A stretch of DNA of 64,000 bases from Ancylomarina sp. DW003 (lineage in GTDB: Bacteria > Bacteroidota > Bacteroidia > Bacteroidales > Marinifilaceae): assembly GCF_029029505.1 (NCBI RefSeq), contig NZ_JAKJSD010000007.1, positions 62,001 to 126,000 of the forward strand. Direction: 5' to 3'. Below the pieces are notes generated by a model that was given only the letters and a program-made list of their open reading frames with translations, was not told the origin of the DNA and ran no database searches. Of this stretch, positions 7,490 to 60,014 are shown in pieces. Made by a program: the position numbers and the translations under genes. How positions within the stretch are numbered: the first letter of the stretch is position 1; each line of letters starts with the position of its first letter.

Positions 7490-8440
7490 ATGGGATTATT
7501 TGGCATTTTTTCGAAATCGAAAAAAGAAAATCTAGATAAAGGACTTGCAAAAACTAAGGATAGCGTATTTAAAAAGTTGTCGCGAGCTGTTGTAGGTAAA
7601 TCGAAAGTTGACGAAGAAGTTTTAGATGAGTTGGAAGAGATCTTGATCTCATCTGATGTGGGGGTTGATACAACTGTTCGAATTATTGAAAGAATTGAAA
7701 AACGTGTTGAAGAAGATAAATTTCTTGGAACATCAGAGTTGAATCGTATTCTTAAAGAAGAGATTTCTGGCTTGTTGCAAGAGAACAACAAAGGCGAATA
7801 TGATGCTTGGGAATTACCAAAATCTGATAACCCATATGTAATAATGGTTGTTGGTGTAAATGGTGTTGGGAAAACAACAACCATTGGTAAGTTGGCTCAT
7901 CAATTTAAACAGTCGGGACGTAAGGTGATGTTAGGTGCAGCAGATACTTTCCGTGCGGCAGCTGTTGACCAGTTACATATTTGGGCAGATAGAGTACAGG
8001 TTCCTGTTGTAGATCAGGGAATGGGAGCAGATCCTGCCTCTGTAGCTTTCGAAACATTAACTCAAGCAAAAAAAGATGGTGTAGATGTGGTAATCATTGA
8101 TACTGCAGGCCGTCTTCACAATAAGATTAACTTGATGAATGAGTTGAGTAAGATCAAACGTGTCATGGATCGTGTTATTCCTGATGCACCTCATGAAATA
8201 CTTTTGGTTTTAGATGGTTCTACGGGACAGAATGCTTTTGAACAAGCTAAACAATTTACTCTGGCTACTGAAGTAAATGCATTGGCTATTACGAAACTTG
8301 ATGGTACTGCCAAAGGTGGTGTTGTTATTGGCGTTTCCGATCAATTTAAGATTCCTGTAAAATACATTGGAATTGGTGAAGCAATGACTGATCTTCAGGT
8401 TTTTAATCGAGATGAATTTGTAGATTCGCTTTTTAATTAA
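7490..8440 (+). CDS. ftsY: Signal recognition particle receptor FtsY
   Basis: A GTPase that docks ribosome-nascent chain-SRP complexes at the membrane by pairing with Ffh. The 316 residues carry a short basic N-terminal segment instead of the long acidic A domain of enterobacteria, then the N and G domains. The motifs are G1 GVNGVGKT (122-129), the DTFRAAA insertion-box motif, G3 DTAGR and G4 TKLDGTAKGG. It is the usual fourth gene after rpmB-rpmG-DUF4295 but lies behind a terminator, so it probably has its own promoter in the 190-bp gap. Its terminator follows. Confidence 0.97.
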   Translation: MGLFGIFSKSKKENLDKGLAKTKDSVFKKLSRAVVGKSKVDEEVLDELEEILISSDVGVDTTVRIIERIEKRVEEDKFLGTSELNRILKEEISGLLQENNKGEYDAWELPKSDNPYVIMVVGVNGVGKTTTIGKLAHQFKQSGRKVMLGAADTFRAAAVDQLHIWADRVQVPVVDQGMGADPASVAFETLTQAKKDGVDVVIIDTAGRLHNKINLMNELSKIKRVMDRVIPDAPHEILLVLDGSTGQNAFEQAKQFTLATEVNALAITKLDGTAKGGVVIGVSDQFKIPVKYIGIGEAMTDLQVFNRDEFVDSLFN

Positions 8441-40684: not shown

Positions 40685-41341
40685 CATACCCCTTATTTTT
40701 TTGATATAAGTATGAATAAAATAACGAATTCCCCCGATGGATAATTACGGTGAAACTGATATGCTGGCTATCCTTTCAGAATCTGCAATAACTAATGAAA
40801 GTTTCTTTTGTCAATAAAAAAACGAAGTTAATCATCAAAAAATGAATGTTGAAAAGGTGATTTGTAAAAAAATCAAAAAAAAATTAAACGACTAAAATAA
40901 GCTAAGCTAGCCTATGTGATTCAAAAGAACCCTTATAACAAGTGACTTCTGAAGTTTTTATATCTCGATGAAAACAAAATCTTATGATTAAGTAAAAGTA
41001 CTTGATTTTATCATGTAGGTAATTATACTCTAAAACAATTTGAATATTTTGATAACCTTTGATAGTGTGAATTTGAAATGAGAAATAATAATAATGAAAA
41101 ATAGAGAGGGGTTATCATTTTAATTTTTAGTTCATTATCACACTATTAACCTTAGTCGGTTACAGAAGAGAACTTTTTCTGTTTTTCTAATTAGAAACTA
41201 TTATGAAAGGAGGTTTTGTGACTGAAGCATAAACATAAGCGAAAAGCTATTTGAAAGAATTAGGTACGAACTAGAACAGTCAAATAAGTCCTTAACGCTT
41301 ATGCTTAATCAAATTAAAAAACAAAATTAAAAAACAAAATT
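40685..41341 (+). other. 657-bp non-coding leader region before the radical SAM cluster
   Basis: No long ORF. A 26-codon ORF (40737-40817) ends FFCQ and is not supported by a ribosome-binding site. A perfect inverted repeat CATAAGCG / CGCTTATG (41234-41241 with 41296-41303) lies just before the 157-aa gene. A 9-codon ORF with an embedded AAAGGAGGT lies at 41202-41231. A tandem repeat of AAATTAAAAAACA sits directly before the start codon. Together these suggest a long, structured 5' leader. Confidence 0.4.
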
Positions 41342-41815
41342 ATGAAAATTGCAGATTTATTAGGAAAAGCTCAAGAAAACACGGGTGCTAATTTTATTGG
41401 TTTATTAAGAAAAGAAGCACGTATCAAGCATGGTATAGGGTCTCAGTTAAGTGATATTTTAGGTTGGGACAATATTGTGAAGGCTGAAGATGGTAATTGT
41501 TATGAGTATTATTCGGCTCAGGCTCCTTTAATCGGAACAACTATGCCAATACCTGTTCCTTGTCCACTTGGAATTGTAGCTTTTGATGATTGCAAAATTG
41601 ATATTGAGGAAGCTATAAAGATTTTTCATACTCAAAATGGGGGGGATCATTTTACTAAGATTTCTTTGAGCTGGCCTTTGGTGCATCCTGCAGCAGTGGA
41701 GCCTCATTGGCATTTCAGAACCAATTTGGGTAACGATGTTACAATTGGTGCTAATTCGGGACAGATTAGTGGTATGCCACCTATGGTCGTTCTTTATATG
41801 GGGAGACCACAGTAA
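41342..41815 (+). CDS. Unknown 157-aa protein, first gene of the radical SAM cluster
   Basis: This gene is not recognised. The product is soluble with no signal peptide. The N-terminus is helical (MKIADLLGKAQENTGANFIGLL), followed by a proline-rich centre GTTMPIPVPCPLG. The C-terminal part, with EPHWHFRTNLGNDVTIGANSGQISG, weakly recalls PepSY-type strand-hairpin modules, and the protein ends VVLYMGRPQ. Three Cys occur (GNCYEY, PVPCPL, DDCKID). It is followed by a strong hairpin and then the radical SAM gene, the position normally taken by a RiPP precursor, but it is larger than most precursors. It could be a substrate, a carrier or a chaperone for the enzyme. Confidence 0.6.
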   Translation: MKIADLLGKAQENTGANFIGLLRKEARIKHGIGSQLSDILGWDNIVKAEDGNCYEYYSAQAPLIGTTMPIPVPCPLGIVAFDDCKIDIEEAIKIFHTQNGGDHFTKISLSWPLVHPAAVEPHWHFRTNLGNDVTIGANSGQISGMPPMVVLYMGRPQ

Positions 41816-41824
41816 TTTAAACTC

Positions 41825-41849
41825 GAACCTGAGTTATACACTCAGGTTC
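41825..41849 (+). terminator. Intercistronic hairpin between the 157-aa gene and the radical SAM gene
   Basis: A perfect 10-bp stem (41825-41834 with 41840-41849) with a 5-base loop and a weak pyrimidine tail (TCATCTTCTCTTTTC). It probably gives partial termination or protects the upstream message, yielding more of the first product than of the enzyme. Confidence 0.6.
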
Positions 41850-41883
41850 TCATCTTCTCTTTTCTAAGATTAAATCGACTATT

Positions 41884-42915
41884 ATGAATCAGAAAACATA
41901 CACACCTGCCTATTGCGTGTGGGAATTAACCCTAAAATGTAATATGAATTGTCTGCATTGCGGTTCGCGAGCAGGCCAGGCAAGAGATAATGAATTGCCT
42001 TTGGATGAGGCCTTGCAGGTGGCCGATAATCTCATAGAGCTTGGCTGCCAACAACTTTCGCTAATAGGCGGTGAAGTGTTTTTATATAAAGGTTGGGAGA
42101 AAATTGCCCGTCGACTTACTGATAATAAAATACTGGTTAATATTATCACCAATGGTTTCCTTATGGGTGATAAGCAAATTGAGGAAATCAAGTATTCAAA
42201 CATTTCTAATGTGATTATTTCTATAGATGGAATGGCTGAGAATCATAACCGAATTCGAAACAATGAAAAATCCTTTTCACATATAGAAAAAACAATTGCC
42301 CGATTAAATCAAGAGAATATACCCATTGGTGTTAACACAACGCTACTTGATACCAACTTTTCAGATCTGGATGAGCTTAATAAATTTCTCATTGCGAATA
42401 ATGTGAAAATTTGGCAGCTACAATTAGCTAATCCTATGGGAAATATGAGTGACAGACGAGAACAGCTAATTAGTATCGAAAACATCAAAAAGCTAACAGC
42501 ATTTATTCGTCAAAGGCGTCGAGATAACCGCATGTCGGTTTACACGGGCGACAATGTGGGTTATTACGATGAACATGAAAAATATATTAGAGGTAATCCG
42601 GGTAATATCAATTATTGGGCGGGATGCCAGGCGGGTTTACATGTAGTAGGTATCGATAGTATAGGAAATGTAAAAGGTTGTGAATCGTTATACGACGATA
42701 CTTTTATCGAAGGTAACCTTAGAAACGAAAGCCTGTCGGAAATCTGGTTTAAGGAAGGCAATTTTGCTTATAACCGAAACTTCGATCCATCTATGTTAAC
42801 AGGTAAATGCAAAGATTGTGATAAAGGCGCCTTTTGCCGAGCTGGCTGCCGCGGTGCTTGCTTCTTCACTCAAGGTGAATATTTCGAAAATGCTTACTGC
42901 GTATACAAGGAGTGA
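41884..42915 (+). CDS. Radical SAM/SPASM domain enzyme
   Basis: A 343-residue radical SAM enzyme with twitch-type C-terminus. The CxxxCxxC cluster site is Cys19-Cys23-Cys26 (LKCNMNCLHCG). The SAM-binding GGE motif is LIGGEVFLYKGW, followed by SNVIISIDGM. The C-terminal region fits the SPASM consensus: Cys, 17 residues including G-x4-Cys (GNVKGC), then C-x2-C-x5-C-x3-C (CKDCDKGAFCRAGC) and two further Cys, for two auxiliary 4Fe-4S clusters. SPASM enzymes mainly modify peptides or proteins (crosslinks, thioethers, decarboxylation). Its neighbours are an unknown 157-aa protein and an AidA/PixA-type protein, the likely substrates. No peptidase, transporter or PqqD-like gene is nearby. Confidence 0.9.
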   Translation: MNQKTYTPAYCVWELTLKCNMNCLHCGSRAGQARDNELPLDEALQVADNLIELGCQQLSLIGGEVFLYKGWEKIARRLTDNKILVNIITNGFLMGDKQIEEIKYSNISNVIISIDGMAENHNRIRNNEKSFSHIEKTIARLNQENIPIGVNTTLLDTNFSDLDELNKFLIANNVKIWQLQLANPMGNMSDRREQLISIENIKKLTAFIRQRRRDNRMSVYTGDNVGYYDEHEKYIRGNPGNINYWAGCQAGLHVVGIDSIGNVKGCESLYDDTFIEGNLRNESLSEIWFKEGNFAYNRNFDPSMLTGKCKDCDKGAFCRAGCRGACFFTQGEYFENAYCVYKE

Positions 42916-42975
42916 TTTTTGTATAAACAGATAAGAGTTTGTTTTAAGTAATTATAATTATAAAAAATAATTGTT

Positions 42976-43680
42976 ATGAAAAAGGTAAATATTTTTGCTT
43001 CAATTGATATTGAAGGTATTTTGGCACATAAAAAGTATGATACAGGTTTAACTGTAAAAGAACAAATAGTAAAAGAATATGGTTTTGATCCAACTGTTGG
43101 TCCAATTACTAAACCTTCAGATATTCAAAAATTAAAAGACTATGCAACTCATCCTTTACGATTTGGATGGACAGATTATAAGCAGATTCCTGATTATGTG
43201 AGATTAATTTCGTCAAAAGAGAGTTCGGAAGGTTATAAAATCTCTGATCAAGATATAGAGAAAGGACGTGTTACAAGTATTTATGAACTTCAAATAAGTG
43301 CTGATGTTGGTGATACTGTTAAATGGTGGGGACATAGCATTAATCCGATGACTACAACACAGTGTATCATCTCTCATATTTCACATATACAGAAGAAAAG
43401 TGGTAGTGGTGGAATTACAGTTCCAAATATTTCTAGTAGTGATATTAGTTTTTATTATGCCAGTAGAGGTGCAGGAACTATTCCTTCTCAGGGAATTCGT
43501 GTTGAAACGAGCAGTGCGTATACTACCCAGTTAGTGATACCTAATGACTGGAACAATAAGGTAGTTAGTTATGATATAGAGATATTGCTTTTATCAGCTC
43601 AGGTTCTTACATCCGATTCGGGGCTTGTATCTTTCCCTATAGCTAAACTGGTTGTTGATCCAACAATAAATTTACAATAA
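42976..43680 (+). CDS. AidA/PixA-type inclusion body family protein
   Basis: A 234-residue soluble beta-sandwich-type protein. The opening KVNIFASIDIEGILA and the central DVGDTVKWWGHSINP followed by CIISHISHI match the general pattern of AidA/PixA inclusion body proteins, including the D-x-V-x-W-x-x-x-S-I-N segment. Members form cytoplasmic crystalline inclusions in Xenorhabdus (PixA) or are quorum-controlled proteins (AidA) that affect host interaction and have unclear biochemistry. It lies 60 bases after the radical SAM gene on the same strand. Association with a radical SAM/SPASM enzyme is not one I know, so modification of this protein is possible but unproven. Confidence 0.72.
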   Translation: MKKVNIFASIDIEGILAHKKYDTGLTVKEQIVKEYGFDPTVGPITKPSDIQKLKDYATHPLRFGWTDYKQIPDYVRLISSKESSEGYKISDQDIEKGRVTSIYELQISADVGDTVKWWGHSINPMTTTQCIISHISHIQKKSGSGGITVPNISSSDISFYYASRGAGTIPSQGIRVETSSAYTTQLVIPNDWNNKVVSYDIEILLLSAQVLTSDSGLVSFPIAKLVVDPTINLQ

Positions 43681-43703
43681 TTAATAGTTCAGTAGATGTT
43701 AGC

Positions 43704-43741
43704 ATACATATAATGCTCTTTGAGTTGAGCATTATATGTAT
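43704..43741 (+). terminator. 15-bp perfect hairpin between the PixA-type and phosphorylase-like genes
   Basis: Positions 43704-43718 pair perfectly with 43727-43741 around an 8-base loop. There is no T run, so simple termination is unlikely. The 3' arm contains the most upstream in-frame ATG (43736) of the next gene, hiding it. The structure may set the mRNA ratio by processing or control translation. Confidence 0.6.
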
Positions 43742-43756
43742 TCCAAAAATGGTAAA

Positions 43757-44761
43757 ATGTGTGAAAAATCAAGAGTAGTTATTGTCGTAAATAAGTATTG
43801 GGAATGTGATCCTGTATGCTGGGTGTTAACTAACAAGTACATTAAAGAGCAATGTTGTATCGATTTTGATTGCGACATTACCTGTTTAACCTATCCATCC
43901 TATGGACCAGTAAAGAATGAAAATCCAAAGGATACGATTCCTCGATTATTATTCGAAACCGATACCAGAAGCATAGAAGTTTGGTGTATCTCCGATTTAA
44001 TGAATGGCTGTGCACCTGATCTGCAATCCAGCTCCGAGGAGAAAATGAAGTATTTACCAATAATTTATAATTACGACAAAGAAAAGGAAATTGAATTAGT
44101 TATAGCAGTTGGAACCGCTTCGTCAGGTCCAGCTATTACAGCAGATTCTCAGTTCAAAACTGATAACATTAATGGTTCTGTTGTAGTGGGATCTAAGGTG
44201 TTTATGCACAATGGAGGTGATGAGGACTCCAAAAGTAAGTACCAGTGTGATTGTTGGGACGAGATTCTAATATCGAGTAAAACTGATTTTATAGATGAAT
44301 TGAAGAATATCGATTTTAATGTTTACAACCAGTTGATGCTATGTCCTCCAACAAATCCAGCACCTAATGGTCAAAAGGTCTATATCGATAAAGATTTCAT
44401 CGCTCTGGGTGATGTTAACGTAACGGACTATGCTAAATATGCCGAGAAGGATAAACAAACTGGTGCAGCATTCACAGTCAGTTACCCAACTAATCAGAAT
44501 GCCGTATCTCTGGAAACAACCCATTGCTTAATCTATAAAGCGGCAAAAGATCATCTCAATGGTCAAAACCCACCTTTTATGTTTGTGAGTGGTGAGGTTG
44601 ATCGATTCACGCAGTTTGCTATAGATGTCGACCCTAAAGCTTATGCACAAAACGTATCGGGAGCCCACAATGCAGGTGTGGTTATCGCCAAAATCATTTC
44701 TGTGCTTAGTAAAAAAGATAAGCATAAAACAAAAAGAGAACGGGTAGCAGATCATGTTTGA
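43757..44761 (+). CDS. Nucleoside phosphorylase-like (PNP/MTAN fold) protein
   Basis: 334 residues from ATG 43757; an earlier in-frame ATG (43736) lies inside a hairpin and is less likely. The segment IELVIAVGTASSGPAI followed by NGSVVVGSKVFMHN resembles the GTAG and product-site strands of the purine phosphorylase/MTAN fold. The C-terminal PFMFVSGEVDRF, followed by YAQNVSGAHNAGVVIAKII, resembles the substrate-loop and final helix. Whether it cleaves a nucleoside is unknown; related folds serve in nucleotide-derived signalling and conflict systems. One possible link is removal of methylthioadenosine or 5'-deoxyadenosine, the latter a by-product of radical SAM chemistry. It is the last gene before a terminator. 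Confidence 0.55.
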   Translation: MCEKSRVVIVVNKYWECDPVCWVLTNKYIKEQCCIDFDCDITCLTYPSYGPVKNENPKDTIPRLLFETDTRSIEVWCISDLMNGCAPDLQSSSEEKMKYLPIIYNYDKEKEIELVIAVGTASSGPAITADSQFKTDNINGSVVVGSKVFMHNGGDEDSKSKYQCDCWDEILISSKTDFIDELKNIDFNVYNQLMLCPPTNPAPNGQKVYIDKDFIALGDVNVTDYAKYAEKDKQTGAAFTVSYPTNQNAVSLETTHCLIYKAAKDHLNGQNPPFMFVSGEVDRFTQFAIDVDPKAYAQNVSGAHNAGVVIAKIISVLSKKDKHKTKRERVADHV

Positions 44762-44897: not shown

Positions 44898-44926
44898 AAG
44901 GTGTGGACAATCGTTCACACCTTTTT
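44898..44926 (+). terminator. Intrinsic terminator of the radical SAM cluster
   Basis: An 8-bp perfect stem (44898-44905 with 44916-44923) followed by T5 (44922-44926), 137 bases after the last stop codon. Confidence 0.78.
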
Positions 44927-57805: not shown

Positions 57806-58591
57806 ATGCCTGGATTAGGACAAAGCGAATTATTATCGATGAGCCAACAATTTTCTGGCTTACCAATGGACTCATTAATAGGAGGGCCATTAAATGCAGC
57901 AGCTAATGCAAATGGAAATATGGCTGTTACTCAAGTAAAATTTATGCTAGATACGTGTTTTACGAAAGTAATTACACCAGCAGATGATAATGCTAAGCCT
58001 CCAACAGCAGAGGTTACTAACTACAACCCGATTCTGATTAATATGTCTTTAACAAGGCAAATAATTACACCAGTCGGAGCTTCTGCAGCTAAGGCTTATG
58101 CTGATTCAATATCGGTAATAACTAATGATCCCGCTAATGCAGGTAAACCAGATGTAATAGCAGAAGCTATAGCGAAAATACCAAAACCAGAGGCTCAGAT
58201 TGAAGATAAGACCACAGCCTTTAATTTACCATTACTTACCATTATCCCACTAAACTCATTGGCTGTAAAAACCGTTGATATTGGGTTCGAAATGGAAGTT
58301 AAATCCAGTTATGGTGAAGACCATTCAAATGAATCTTCAAAATCGTTAGCTACCGAGGCTAGTTTTGAAGCTAAAGTGGGTTATGGAATTTTTTCCGCAT
58401 CGGTAAAAGGTTCGGCTAGTTATAAATCAGATGAGAAATCTACAGAAAGCTCTCATTACGAGAAATCTAATTCTGCCAAATACACCGTTAATGTAACAGC
58501 AGGGCAATTACCTTTACCTGATGGTGTGAAAACGATTATTGAAGCTTTTGCAGGAGCTATTCAACCGGTTACTTTGCCAGTTCCGGCATAG
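57806..58591 (+). CDS. DUF2589 domain protein (paralogue 1)
   Basis: A 261-residue soluble protein without a signal peptide. DUF2589 hallmarks are the N-terminal LPMDSLIGGPLNAAANANGNMAVTQV helix, the core strand set FNLPLLTIIPLNSLAVKTVDIGFEMEV (about 152-178) and the C-terminal YTVNVTAGQLPLPDGVKTIIEAF helix. A Ser/Glu/Lys-rich segment (about 180-230) separates core and tail. The family function is unknown. It is the first gene of an operon with two paralogues; a 14-bp hairpin follows its stop, so it may be made in excess. Confidence 0.82.
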   Translation: MPGLGQSELLSMSQQFSGLPMDSLIGGPLNAAANANGNMAVTQVKFMLDTCFTKVITPADDNAKPPTAEVTNYNPILINMSLTRQIITPVGASAAKAYADSISVITNDPANAGKPDVIAEAIAKIPKPEAQIEDKTTAFNLPLLTIIPLNSLAVKTVDIGFEMEVKSSYGEDHSNESSKSLATEASFEAKVGYGIFSASVKGSASYKSDEKSTESSHYEKSNSAKYTVNVTAGQLPLPDGVKTIIEAFAGAIQPVTLPVPA

Positions 58592-58623
58592 GCAATTAGA
58601 CATCAAAATTAAAATATCTCTTT

Positions 58624-58658
58624 ATCTGCAAGTTGGCTTCTTACGCCAGCTTGTAGAT
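58624..58658 (+). terminator. Intercistronic hairpin after DUF2589 paralogue 1
   Basis: A 14-bp stem with two G-T pairs (58624-58637 with 58645-58658) with a 7-base loop and a TTAATAA tail. It is probably a partial terminator or 3' stabiliser. Confidence 0.6.
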
Positions 58659-58677
58659 TTAATAACGAATTATTCTC

Positions 58678-59304
58678 ATGGCAGATTTAGCGGATAGAAA
58701 CCAAAAATTGAAACCACAGACAAATTCCGAACTCTCGATAGATTCGTTGATTAGTGCTCCCTTAGTGGCTGCATCTAAGGCTAATGCAGAGATGATGCTT
58801 GGTCAAACGCATTTTGTATTGAGGAATTGTTTCAGTAAAAGGAAAGATGAAACAAACAGTTATGATCCTGTAATGATACAGATGTCATTAACTCAAAGCG
58901 TTATCAATAATGATAAAAATCCTTCAGAAGACGATTACATGACAATAAGAAAAATCAATTTTGAGGTGCCTTTGTTTTGTTTGATTCCCATGAATTCCTT
59001 AGCGATTGATAAAATTACAGTTGATTTTGATATGGAAGTAACTTCAACCTCATCGTGGAATATTGGTGATGATGAATCCCAAAAAACAGGGAAAAGAGTA
59101 CTTAAAAAGCAAGCACAATTAAATGGGAAAATAAAAGGTGGATCTAAAGGGGATAGTCAATATACCAAAGACAGCACCAGTAAATTGAAAGTACATATAA
59201 ATGCATCGCCACTTCCATTACCATTAGGTATGCTTACAATATTAGATCTCTATTCTAAGAATATCAATCCAAGTTCCAACTCAAATACTAATAATAATGA
59301 TTAA
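58678..59304 (+). CDS. DUF2589 domain protein (paralogue 2)
   Basis: A 208-residue paralogue of the preceding gene: LSIDSLISAPLVAASKANAEMMLGQTHFVL aligns with the first, then NFEVPLFCLIPMNSLAIDKITVDFDMEV (about 101-128) and LKVHINASPLPLPLGMLTILDLY. It lacks the 50-residue insert near residue 60 of paralogue 1. The stop overlaps the start of the zinc-ribbon gene by 8 bases, so these two are translationally coupled. Confidence 0.8.
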   Translation: MADLADRNQKLKPQTNSELSIDSLISAPLVAASKANAEMMLGQTHFVLRNCFSKRKDETNSYDPVMIQMSLTQSVINNDKNPSEDDYMTIRKINFEVPLFCLIPMNSLAIDKITVDFDMEVTSTSSWNIGDDESQKTGKRVLKKQAQLNGKIKGGSKGDSQYTKDSTSKLKVHINASPLPLPLGMLTILDLYSKNINPSSNSNTNNND

Positions 59305-59494
59305 CCAAGATAATACTATTCCGTGCCCGGTATGCAAAACTCCAATTCCTTTTAATGTCCAAAGTTTAATGGCTGGAGTCAACTTTAGTTGCCCCAAATG
59401 TTTTGCTTCCATTGGGCTATCAAAAGAAAGCGTACCCGTTGTTGAAGATACCATGCAAAAACTTGAAGCTCTAAAAACTAATAAAAACAAATAA
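59297..59494 (+). CDS. Small zinc-ribbon protein of the DUF2589 operon
   Basis: 65 residues. A four-Cys zinc ribbon is visible: CPVC at residues 10-13 and CPKC at 32-35, spaced by 18 residues, followed by a short Lys-rich helix. No DNA- or RNA-binding domain name can be assigned. It overlaps the upstream DUF2589 gene by 8 bases and lies 4 bases before the third, which strongly suggests a shared function. Confidence 0.75.
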   Translation: MINQDNTIPCPVCKTPIPFNVQSLMAGVNFSCPKCFASIGLSKESVPVVEDTMQKLEALKTNKNK

Positions 59495-59498
59495 TGGT

Positions 59499-60014
59499 AT
59501 GCTAAGTTTTAAATCATTTGTCAATGCAATTCACGATGCTATTTTAAAAGCAAATGATGCATTAATGGACAAAAATACCGAATTGCTCGATAAATACTTT
59601 GAGGAAAAAACTGTTGGGATTGTTGACGCAGACAAAAAGCCTGTGTACGATGAAAATGGTGCTCAAAAAGAGAAAAAAATATTGGAACCCATTTCTGTTG
59701 TAATGGATTACCCAATTATTGATGATGATGGTAATCAGCAAAATATTGATGTGCATGTGCCCTTGATTACACTTGTTCCCATATCTACTTCACAAATAGA
59801 AAAAGCAACATTAACAGCCGATTTTGATATGGAAATTGTCGATGGAGATTTACAAATTGATTTTACAGGCAAGCAAAAATCCAGAGGAGTGTTTAAAAAG
59901 ACTAAAAAATCGAAGGGGACTTTAGAAATAATGATTTCTCCACAAGATACATCCGAAGGACTAAAACTTTTAATTGAAGGTTATGAGACTATGATAAAAC
60001 GTCAAATACCTTAG
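59499..60014 (+). CDS. DUF2589 domain protein (paralogue 3)
   Basis: A 171-residue, most divergent paralogue. The core strand set is VHVPLITLVPISTSQIEKATLTADFDMEI (about 86-114), the tail KGTLEIMISPQDTSEGLKLLIEGYE. The N-terminal helix NAIHDAILKANDALMDKNTELLD replaces the glycine-rich start of paralogues 1 and 2. It is the fourth gene of the operon. Confidence 0.78.
   Translation: MLSFKSFVNAIHDAILKANDALMDKNTELLDKYFEEKTVGIVDADKKPVYDENGAQKEKKILEPISVVMDYPIIDDDGNQQNIDVHVPLITLVPISTSQIEKATLTADFDMEIVDGDLQIDFTGKQKSRGVFKKTKKSKGTLEIMISPQDTSEGLKLLIEGYETMIKRQIP

Follow-up and report, generated by a model that had tools for sequence, protein, structure and literature searches.

A radical SAM/SPASM enzyme of Ancylomarina sp. 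DW003 and its putative substrate, a 157-residue protein with a C-terminal Leu-Tyr-Met tail

The stretch of DNA analysed here, a 64,000-nt window of the Ancylomarina sp. DW003 genome in whose positions all coordinates are given, contains a cluster of four open reading frames (ORFs), namely P0001 (41342-41815), P0002 (41884-42915), P0003 (42976-43680) and P0004 (43736-44761), which, like the tail, leader and hairpins of the cluster described below, lie on the + strand. The initial annotation had described them as four genes with spacers of 60-76 bases, and this is what we observed, the spacers being 68, 60 and 76 nt when the start of P0004 is taken at 43757. The first gene encodes a protein of 157 aa, with a body (residues 1-141) and a C-terminal tail (residues 142-157, 41765-41812), the second a radical S-adenosylmethionine (SAM)/SPASM enzyme of 343 aa, and a hairpin with a perfect 10-bp stem and a 5-nt loop is located between them at 41825-41849. 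We propose that P0001 and P0002 form a two-gene module in which the former is the probable substrate and the latter a probable splicease-like modifier of its tail, at Leu151-Tyr152-Met153 (41792-41800).

The assignment of P0002 is clear at the level of its domains, radical SAM (E 1.2e-24) and SPASM (E 7.8e-7). The C-x17-C and C-x2-C-x5-C-x3-C pattern that had been noticed in the sequence could be located, with Cys19, Cys23 and Cys26 forming the CxxxCxxC motif, followed by Cys248, 266, 309, 312, 318, 322 and 339, and these cysteines are invariant in a four-row alignment of P0002 with the enzymes of loci L029, L038 and L030. In NCBIfam, the top model was TIGR04103 (244.4 bits, profile positions 5-344 of 412), followed by TIGR03913; the same two models, in this order and always far below their cut-offs, were the best for L029 (248.3 bits to TIGR04103), L038 (249.9 bits), L030 and L040. 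The next match of P0002 stands at 160 bits, with mycofactocin (120.7), PqqE (82.3) and other SPASM families lower still. In the enzyme tree, P0002, L029 and L038 group together (support 100/99) and then with L030 from Clostridia (97/98), while true members of TIGR04103 and TIGR03913 fall, with two other sequences, in a separate group (100/100), the deeper branches not being ordered by this tree, which leaves out L002 and L004 (no match at 1e-3), L031 (broken), L060 and L061. A reading of P0002 as a viperin-like defence protein was discarded: the viperin models gave 74.4 bits, if compared to 244 for TIGR04103, and that match thus reflects radical SAM kinship only.

The pairing with P0001 is not limited to this strain. 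Adjacent P0001 and radical SAM genes, in the same order, occur at five loci (the window, L029, L038, L060 and L061), with enzymes 70-73% identical to P0002. P0001 orthologues, 64-69% identical, directly precede the enzyme gene in L029, L038 and L060, and in L061 the same position is occupied by a P0001-like protein whose body is 64% identical; the scan with P0002 found L029, a Paludibacteraceae metagenome-assembled genome (MAG), with an enzyme 73% identical behind a P0001 69% identical. P0001 was present in 4 of 56 genomes of the family (its own, G004, G002 and, remotely, G040) and in 2 of 295 of the order (its own and G528, whose locus L038 is another of the pairs). The four-row enzyme alignment, searched at E <= 1e-50, matched 5 of the 295 genomes of the order and 11 of the 395 in the phylum sample, at 16 different places: all four places above 600 bits (own, G528, G260 and G280) have P0001 directly upstream, and those with lower scores have other genes there instead. 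The relation of G260 and G280 to the window is at the level of the phylum only, the pairs of L060 and L061 belonging to another class of it, and in the family of G260 the two genomes with P0001 (out of 86) are both the paired ones. No third gene common to the five loci was seen in the stretches compared. Viral contigs contained no homologue of P0001, of the radical SAM enzyme, of P0003 or of P0004, plasmids neither P0001 nor P0003, and phages no orthologue of the L060 P0001; a P0001 scan of a genome contig collection also gave no match, and was evidently insensitive, since L029 belongs to the collection scanned. The scattered occurrence of the pair among distantly related bacteria is suggestive of gene transfer. 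Conservation of the neighbourhood outside the strain had been taken beforehand as a touchstone for the cluster, and it was found for P0001 and P0002, at five loci, and not for P0003 and P0004: the conserved unit is the pair, not all four genes.

P0001 itself has no family in Pfam, NCBIfam, PHROGs or PADLOC. Its body is well conserved, and in the short tail a variable linker precedes Leu-Tyr. All five tails linked to an enzyme carry LY[MG], with Leu-Tyr-Met in four and Leu-Tyr-Gly in one (L061), and they end VVLYMGRPQ, VILYMAKPQ, VILYMAKPK, TVLYMAHSK and RLLYGTPPVPLYQAPSK; the motif is missing in all three P0001 relatives found without the enzyme. Two of these, from G004 and G002, are of the same genus as the window and have bodies 76 and 74% identical to its own, and their tails end LTNQMAKQH, in which the Tyr is gone and the Met-Ala-Lys of other tails is still recognisable. 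These genomes have no radical SAM protein comparable to P0002, the best genome-wide matches being at E 9.1e-9 (G002) and 1.8e-8 (G004). The identity of their tails to that of the window is 12%, against 50, 44, 44 and 31% in the linked copies, whereas in a tree built on the body only the window protein groups with G004 and G002 (87/88, a moderate support). The ancestries of tail and body therefore disagree, which indicates that the tail follows the presence of the enzyme rather than the descent of the body. The third relative, L012, is remote (body 23% identical), with neither an adjoining enzyme nor a tail; it was kept in the comparison of tails and bodies and left out of the P0001 profile (7 sequences) used for hhalign. 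With that profile, probabilities of 0.1 and 0.2 were obtained against the NHLP precursors of L030 and against DUF1843, respectively, among precursors of ribosomally synthesised and post-translationally modified peptides (RiPPs), and the profile search gave no DUF1843 match either. To look for other proteins with such a tail, the pattern TAYATGGSNMRNCC, which would miss tails of the L060 and L061 type, was searched in five genomes, and gave 25 matches and 24 in the reversed control; in the DW003 genome there were 2 matches, one of them the P0001 tail itself, and 5 in the reversed sequences. The counts being so close to the control, there is no sign of further tagged proteins.

The hairpin at 41825-41849, overlooked in the initial annotation, has a folding energy of -16.5 kcal/mol (z-score -4.4), and none of 300 shuffled sequences folded as well. 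A strong hairpin is present between the two genes in all five pairs (57-68 nt folded), even if the sequences are unrelated, with z-scores of -4.4, -6.7, -4.8, -2.8 and -5.2, and in no case did any of 300 shuffles fold as well; the unlinked locus used for comparison, L011, of which 85 nt of the longer gap after P0001 were folded, gave z -1.2, with 32 of 300 shuffles as good, a fold within the range of chance. A hairpin that is partly read through is a usual means of obtaining much of a substrate and little of its enzyme, and the element between P0001 and P0002, probably an attenuator or a stabiliser of the mRNA 3' end, may have this role. The same observation bears on a different view of P0001, as an accessory enzyme or binding protein that uses the Leu-Tyr tail for docking while the true substrate is encoded elsewhere. 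P0001 is in fact larger than usual precursors, its well-conserved body is retained in G004 and G002, where the enzyme is missing, and it resembles none of the RiPP precursor families compared. On the other hand, a hairpin in five of five pairs suggests a product needed in excess, no further gene is shared by the stretches compared that could be the substrate, and in relatives the enzyme gene is directly preceded by one that looks like a substrate gene; we consider an accessory function rather unlikely.

What lies beside the related enzymes points to the kind of site that P0002 may recognise. The Nif11 precursor next to a true TIGR04103 member of Nostoc (853 bits, cut-off 725) ends SIALYGLPPELF, and a true TIGR03913 member of Azospirillum (768 bits, cut-off 591.75) is accompanied by DUF1843-type peptides with MLYGGA, KPYGVA and PMYMAT, the last of which is an X-Tyr-Met site, so that Met at +1 exists in the GDL system too. 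In Aureibacter, the DUF1843 peptides carry VLYA, PMYA and QPYG. The precursors upstream of the enzyme in L030, a Clostridia MAG, are of the NHLP type (TIGR03793; one above the cut-off, with 54.5 bits, and three below), and two of them end APYQGVEIKF and QPYKGFYVKIDD, with the sites PYQG and PYKG. Moreover, MYL, LYL or IYL was found in proteins adjoining the radical SAM gene in L062, L063 and L067-L072, and the DUF1843-like peptides of L064 and L066 contain PYG and LYG.

Several of these loci were also worth recording in their own right. The DUF1843 'GDL' peptides at L042:4162-4875 and L043:3049-3764 have their LYG, PYG, MYM, LYA and MYA sites near the N-terminus, and these Tyr sites suggest that TIGR03913 enzymes may be spliceases too. 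An unannotated ORF of 68 aa lies upstream of the radical SAM gene on an Agathobacter rectalis plasmid (L040:3692-3898) and ends GPVMYGTGVRM, and is likely an overlooked precursor. Directly behind a related enzyme (280 bits), L065:6415-7059 encodes a 214-aa protein with six KYGYPC-type repeats, a candidate substrate with six X-Tyr-Gly sites. In L068-L072, proteins of about 100 aa with a conserved DPSVVMYLVI segment directly precede the enzymes of a second radical SAM clade, in family f19, the L072 member having no Pfam or NCBIfam match. Finally, in a Methanosarcina MAG (L031:2067-3150), VAMYGVML is in frame just before the start of a radical SAM gene whose frame is broken.

How P0002 could act can be depicted by analogy with PlpX, which excises tyramine from Xaa-Tyr-Gly, the backbone being rejoined (PMC11002830). 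Splicing has been achieved at the C-terminus of a protein by means of a ten-residue tag, the RiPP leader being dispensable (PMC10533398). In our model, the radical SAM chemistry of P0002 would act on the P0001 tail at Leu151-Tyr152-Met153, most likely removing a tyramine unit (C8H9NO, about 135.07 Da according to PMC10533398) from the backbone and leaving an alpha-keto-beta-amino residue derived from Leu151, and the product would be a P0001 with a reactive ketoamide near its C-terminus; the intergenic hairpin would provide much of this substrate for little enzyme. That the tail is the substrate of P0002 we regard as likely; to the combined proposal that the tail is the substrate and splicing the reaction, we assign a probability of roughly 0.55.

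The same enzyme might act on the same tail through another chemistry on Tyr152 or its neighbours, such as oxidative decarboxylation, a Tyr crosslink or epimerisation. The curated spliceotide family does not include P0002, the mycofactocin, PqqE and other SPASM models match it too, at the lower scores given above, and the residue at +1 is Met, not Gly, in four of the five tails; the mycofactocin enzyme, for its part, acts on a Tyr by decarboxylation, and the formation of a C-C bond follows (PMC8326336). However, TIGR04103 and TIGR03913 lead clearly (244 and 233 bits, against 160 for the next model), and one orthologous tail, that of L061, has the canonical LYG, and for this reason a different reaction appears doubtful, although it is the most serious competitor of splicing.

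Several observations weigh against splicing of the P0001 tail, chiefly that four tails have Met at +1, that the family score is low and that a RiPP recognition element (RRE) was not seen. The window site is LYM and not the proven XYG, and its tail lies outside the X-Tyr-Gly definition of a substrate. P0002 is far under the cut-off of TIGR04103 (244.4 of 725 bits) and of TIGR03913 (233.5 of 591.75 bits). No PlpY-like neighbour was seen, no small + strand ORF adjoining P0002 among ORFs of at least 60 aa (a shorter or distant one being possible), and RRE-type models of Pfam and NCBIfam did not match P0001, P0003 or P0004, even if a divergent RRE could escape them. Most placements of the tag in FtsZ were unmodified, according to PMC10533398, and thus an X-Tyr tail alone is no guarantee of splicing. 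Modelling of P0001 with L029 by AlphaFold gave a predicted local distance difference test (pLDDT) value of 35, and no usable model. The loss of the tail Tyr together with the enzyme is one evolutionary event, not several, seen in a single lineage (two bodies 95% identical), to which only the remote L012 can be added. As for the loci of the relatives, an X-Tyr site was present in an adjacent protein in 20 of 24 (weak radical SAM loci L033-L035 and most plasmid matches excluded), with L032, L044 and L073 lacking it and L031 unclear, and this count is a pattern rather than a test because the motif is a short one with a loose definition, recognised post hoc; the weight of the argument is on the Nostoc and Azospirillum members, which are above curated cut-offs, and on the LYG of L061.

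Near the pair we found neither a known leader nor a transporter, a peptidase or a recognition partner. A wider form of the splicing proposal, which we advance tentatively and at somewhat worse than even odds, is that an enzyme of a new subfamily splices a protein of ordinary size at a C-terminal Leu-Tyr-Met tag, outside a recognisable RiPP pathway, that the permanent ketoamide would attach the protein covalently to a partner, and that the modification would be gained or lost through the 16-residue tail.

The remaining genes are local neighbours of the pair. P0003 (234 aa) is weakly PixA-like: the AidA/PixA type first assigned to it survives only as a similarity to PF12306 over 43 residues, below the gathering cut-off (E 0.027, 15.1 bits of the 21 needed), and the other 394 genomes of the 395 searched in the phylum gave no relative, nor did L029 or L038. 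Thus, of the two substrates envisaged in the initial annotation, the 157-aa protein is retained as the probable one and P0003, which among the 395 genomes was found in its own only and gave no match in L029 or L038, is not supported. P0004 (341 aa from 43736) has no family, and its true start is probably 43757, the position equivalent to that at which its homologues in the same-genus genomes of L010 and L011, 66-67% identical, both begin. It had been considered PNP/MTAN-like, with a phosphorylase role that our searches do not support: Pfam gave no match, the PDB sequences none up to E 10, and NCBIfam a single one with an unrelated chaperone family (E 0.23). By hhalign, E. coli mtn (19.7) and deoD (17.4) scored slightly higher than udp (13.1) and than five E. 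coli proteins taken as unrelated controls (11.3-13.7), with probabilities of at most 1.0 of 100 from a three-row profile, a weak test whose outcome is weakly in favour of the label and not significant; the AlphaFold prediction of P0004 alone (pLDDT 31) gave no usable model. It has no counterpart in the other 394 of the 395 phylum genomes sampled and no match in L029 or L038, and three weak partial matches each were found on plasmids and in phages; in addition, an S8 peptidase gene of a Bradyrhizobium plasmid is preceded by an apparent broken P0004-like remnant (L076:3255-3674).

P0004 stays with P0001 in G004 and G002, both devoid of a comparable radical SAM enzyme, and since they are together in these two genomes P0004 may work with P0001. 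In L010:7212-9808 and L011:10626-13221, proteins of 472 and 353 aa are encoded between the two, and for the L011 copies no family was found. This association, together with the same-strand order and the short spacers, would fit a wider four-gene system in which P0002 modifies P0003 and/or P0004, P0001 is an adaptor and the outcome is one modified storage or surface protein. We judge such a system very unlikely, as neither P0003 nor P0004 has a match in L029, in L038 or, within the phylum sample, in the L060 and L061 genomes; P0004 and P0001 occur together outside the window without a comparable enzyme; and there is no Tyr within the last 16 residues of P0003 or P0004.

The cluster is preceded by the long structured leader previously noticed, with two inverted repeats at 41059-41307 (41059-41088/41120-41149 and 41230-41246/41291-41307); the fold of 41040-41341 has z -3.2, none of 100 shuffles being as good, and no Rfam family matched it. 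Downstream of the last gene, the terminator also proved to be there, as a hairpin followed by a T run at 44900-44926, although it was not listed by the scan for terminator patterns. No match to the Bacteroidota -33/-7 promoter pattern was found near the cluster. Elsewhere, three DUF2589 genes are located at 57806-60014, 13 kb past P0004, a DUF2589 relative (28% identity) lies about 1.6 kb behind the L038 enzyme (L038:8656-9282), and in L029 a protein of 171 aa encoded downstream of the pair (7704-8219) contains a Phage Tail Collar domain (PF07484, E 1e-17).

The initial annotation knew of no described system with this set of genes, which was too strong, since P0002 scores best with two curated families, the nif11-class peptide maturase 3 and the GDL-peptide maturase, though well below their cut-offs. 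A non-exhaustive search of titles and abstracts retrieved no such pair; it may be in print already, and priority is uncertain. The splicease substrates named in PMC11002830 and PMC10533398 are RiPP precursors or engineered tags. If our reading is true, P0001, a naturally occurring protein of some 157 residues that is accompanied by the enzyme in some closely related genomes and not in others, would show how an ordinary protein comes to acquire such a modification, and a new 343-aa enzyme for an LYM site, with no recognition partner seen, would be useful for labelling at a genetically encoded tag.

The nearest known systems share only part of these features. The PlpX spliceotide maturase family IPR026482 is presumably the same as TIGR04103 (nif11-class peptide radical SAM maturase 3). 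P0002 is like it in the radical SAM/SPASM architecture, in the CxxxCxxC and SPASM auxiliary cysteines, in the substrate-like gene directly upstream and in the X-Tyr site, which is LYG in one orthologous tail. It differs in the score (244 bits against a cut-off of 725) and in the branch, apart from true members; P0001, with 157 aa, has no match to a Nif11 or NHLP leader (Pfam and NCBIfam; by hhalign, NHLP only), four of five tails have LYM, and no RRE partner is seen beside P0002, unlike PlpX with PlpY, its adjacent truncated RRE protein. TIGR03913, with DUF1843 (PF08898), is the second-best model, and its peptides have MLYG, KPYG, PMYM, VLYA, PMYA and QPYG; nevertheless, P0002 reaches 233.5 of 591.75 bits with 343 aa against a model of 477 positions, and P0001 lacks similarity to DUF1843 and has its site at the C-terminus of 157 aa and not near the N-terminus of a peptide of about 60 aa. 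The L030 enzyme is the most similar intact one outside the five pairs (52%) and groups with P0002 (97/98), but its upstream genes are NHLP-type RiPP precursors and not P0001-like. Judging from these comparisons, the maturation would be of a known, splicease-like kind, and what appears to be new is the branch of the enzyme, the protein-sized substrate family and the LYM site.

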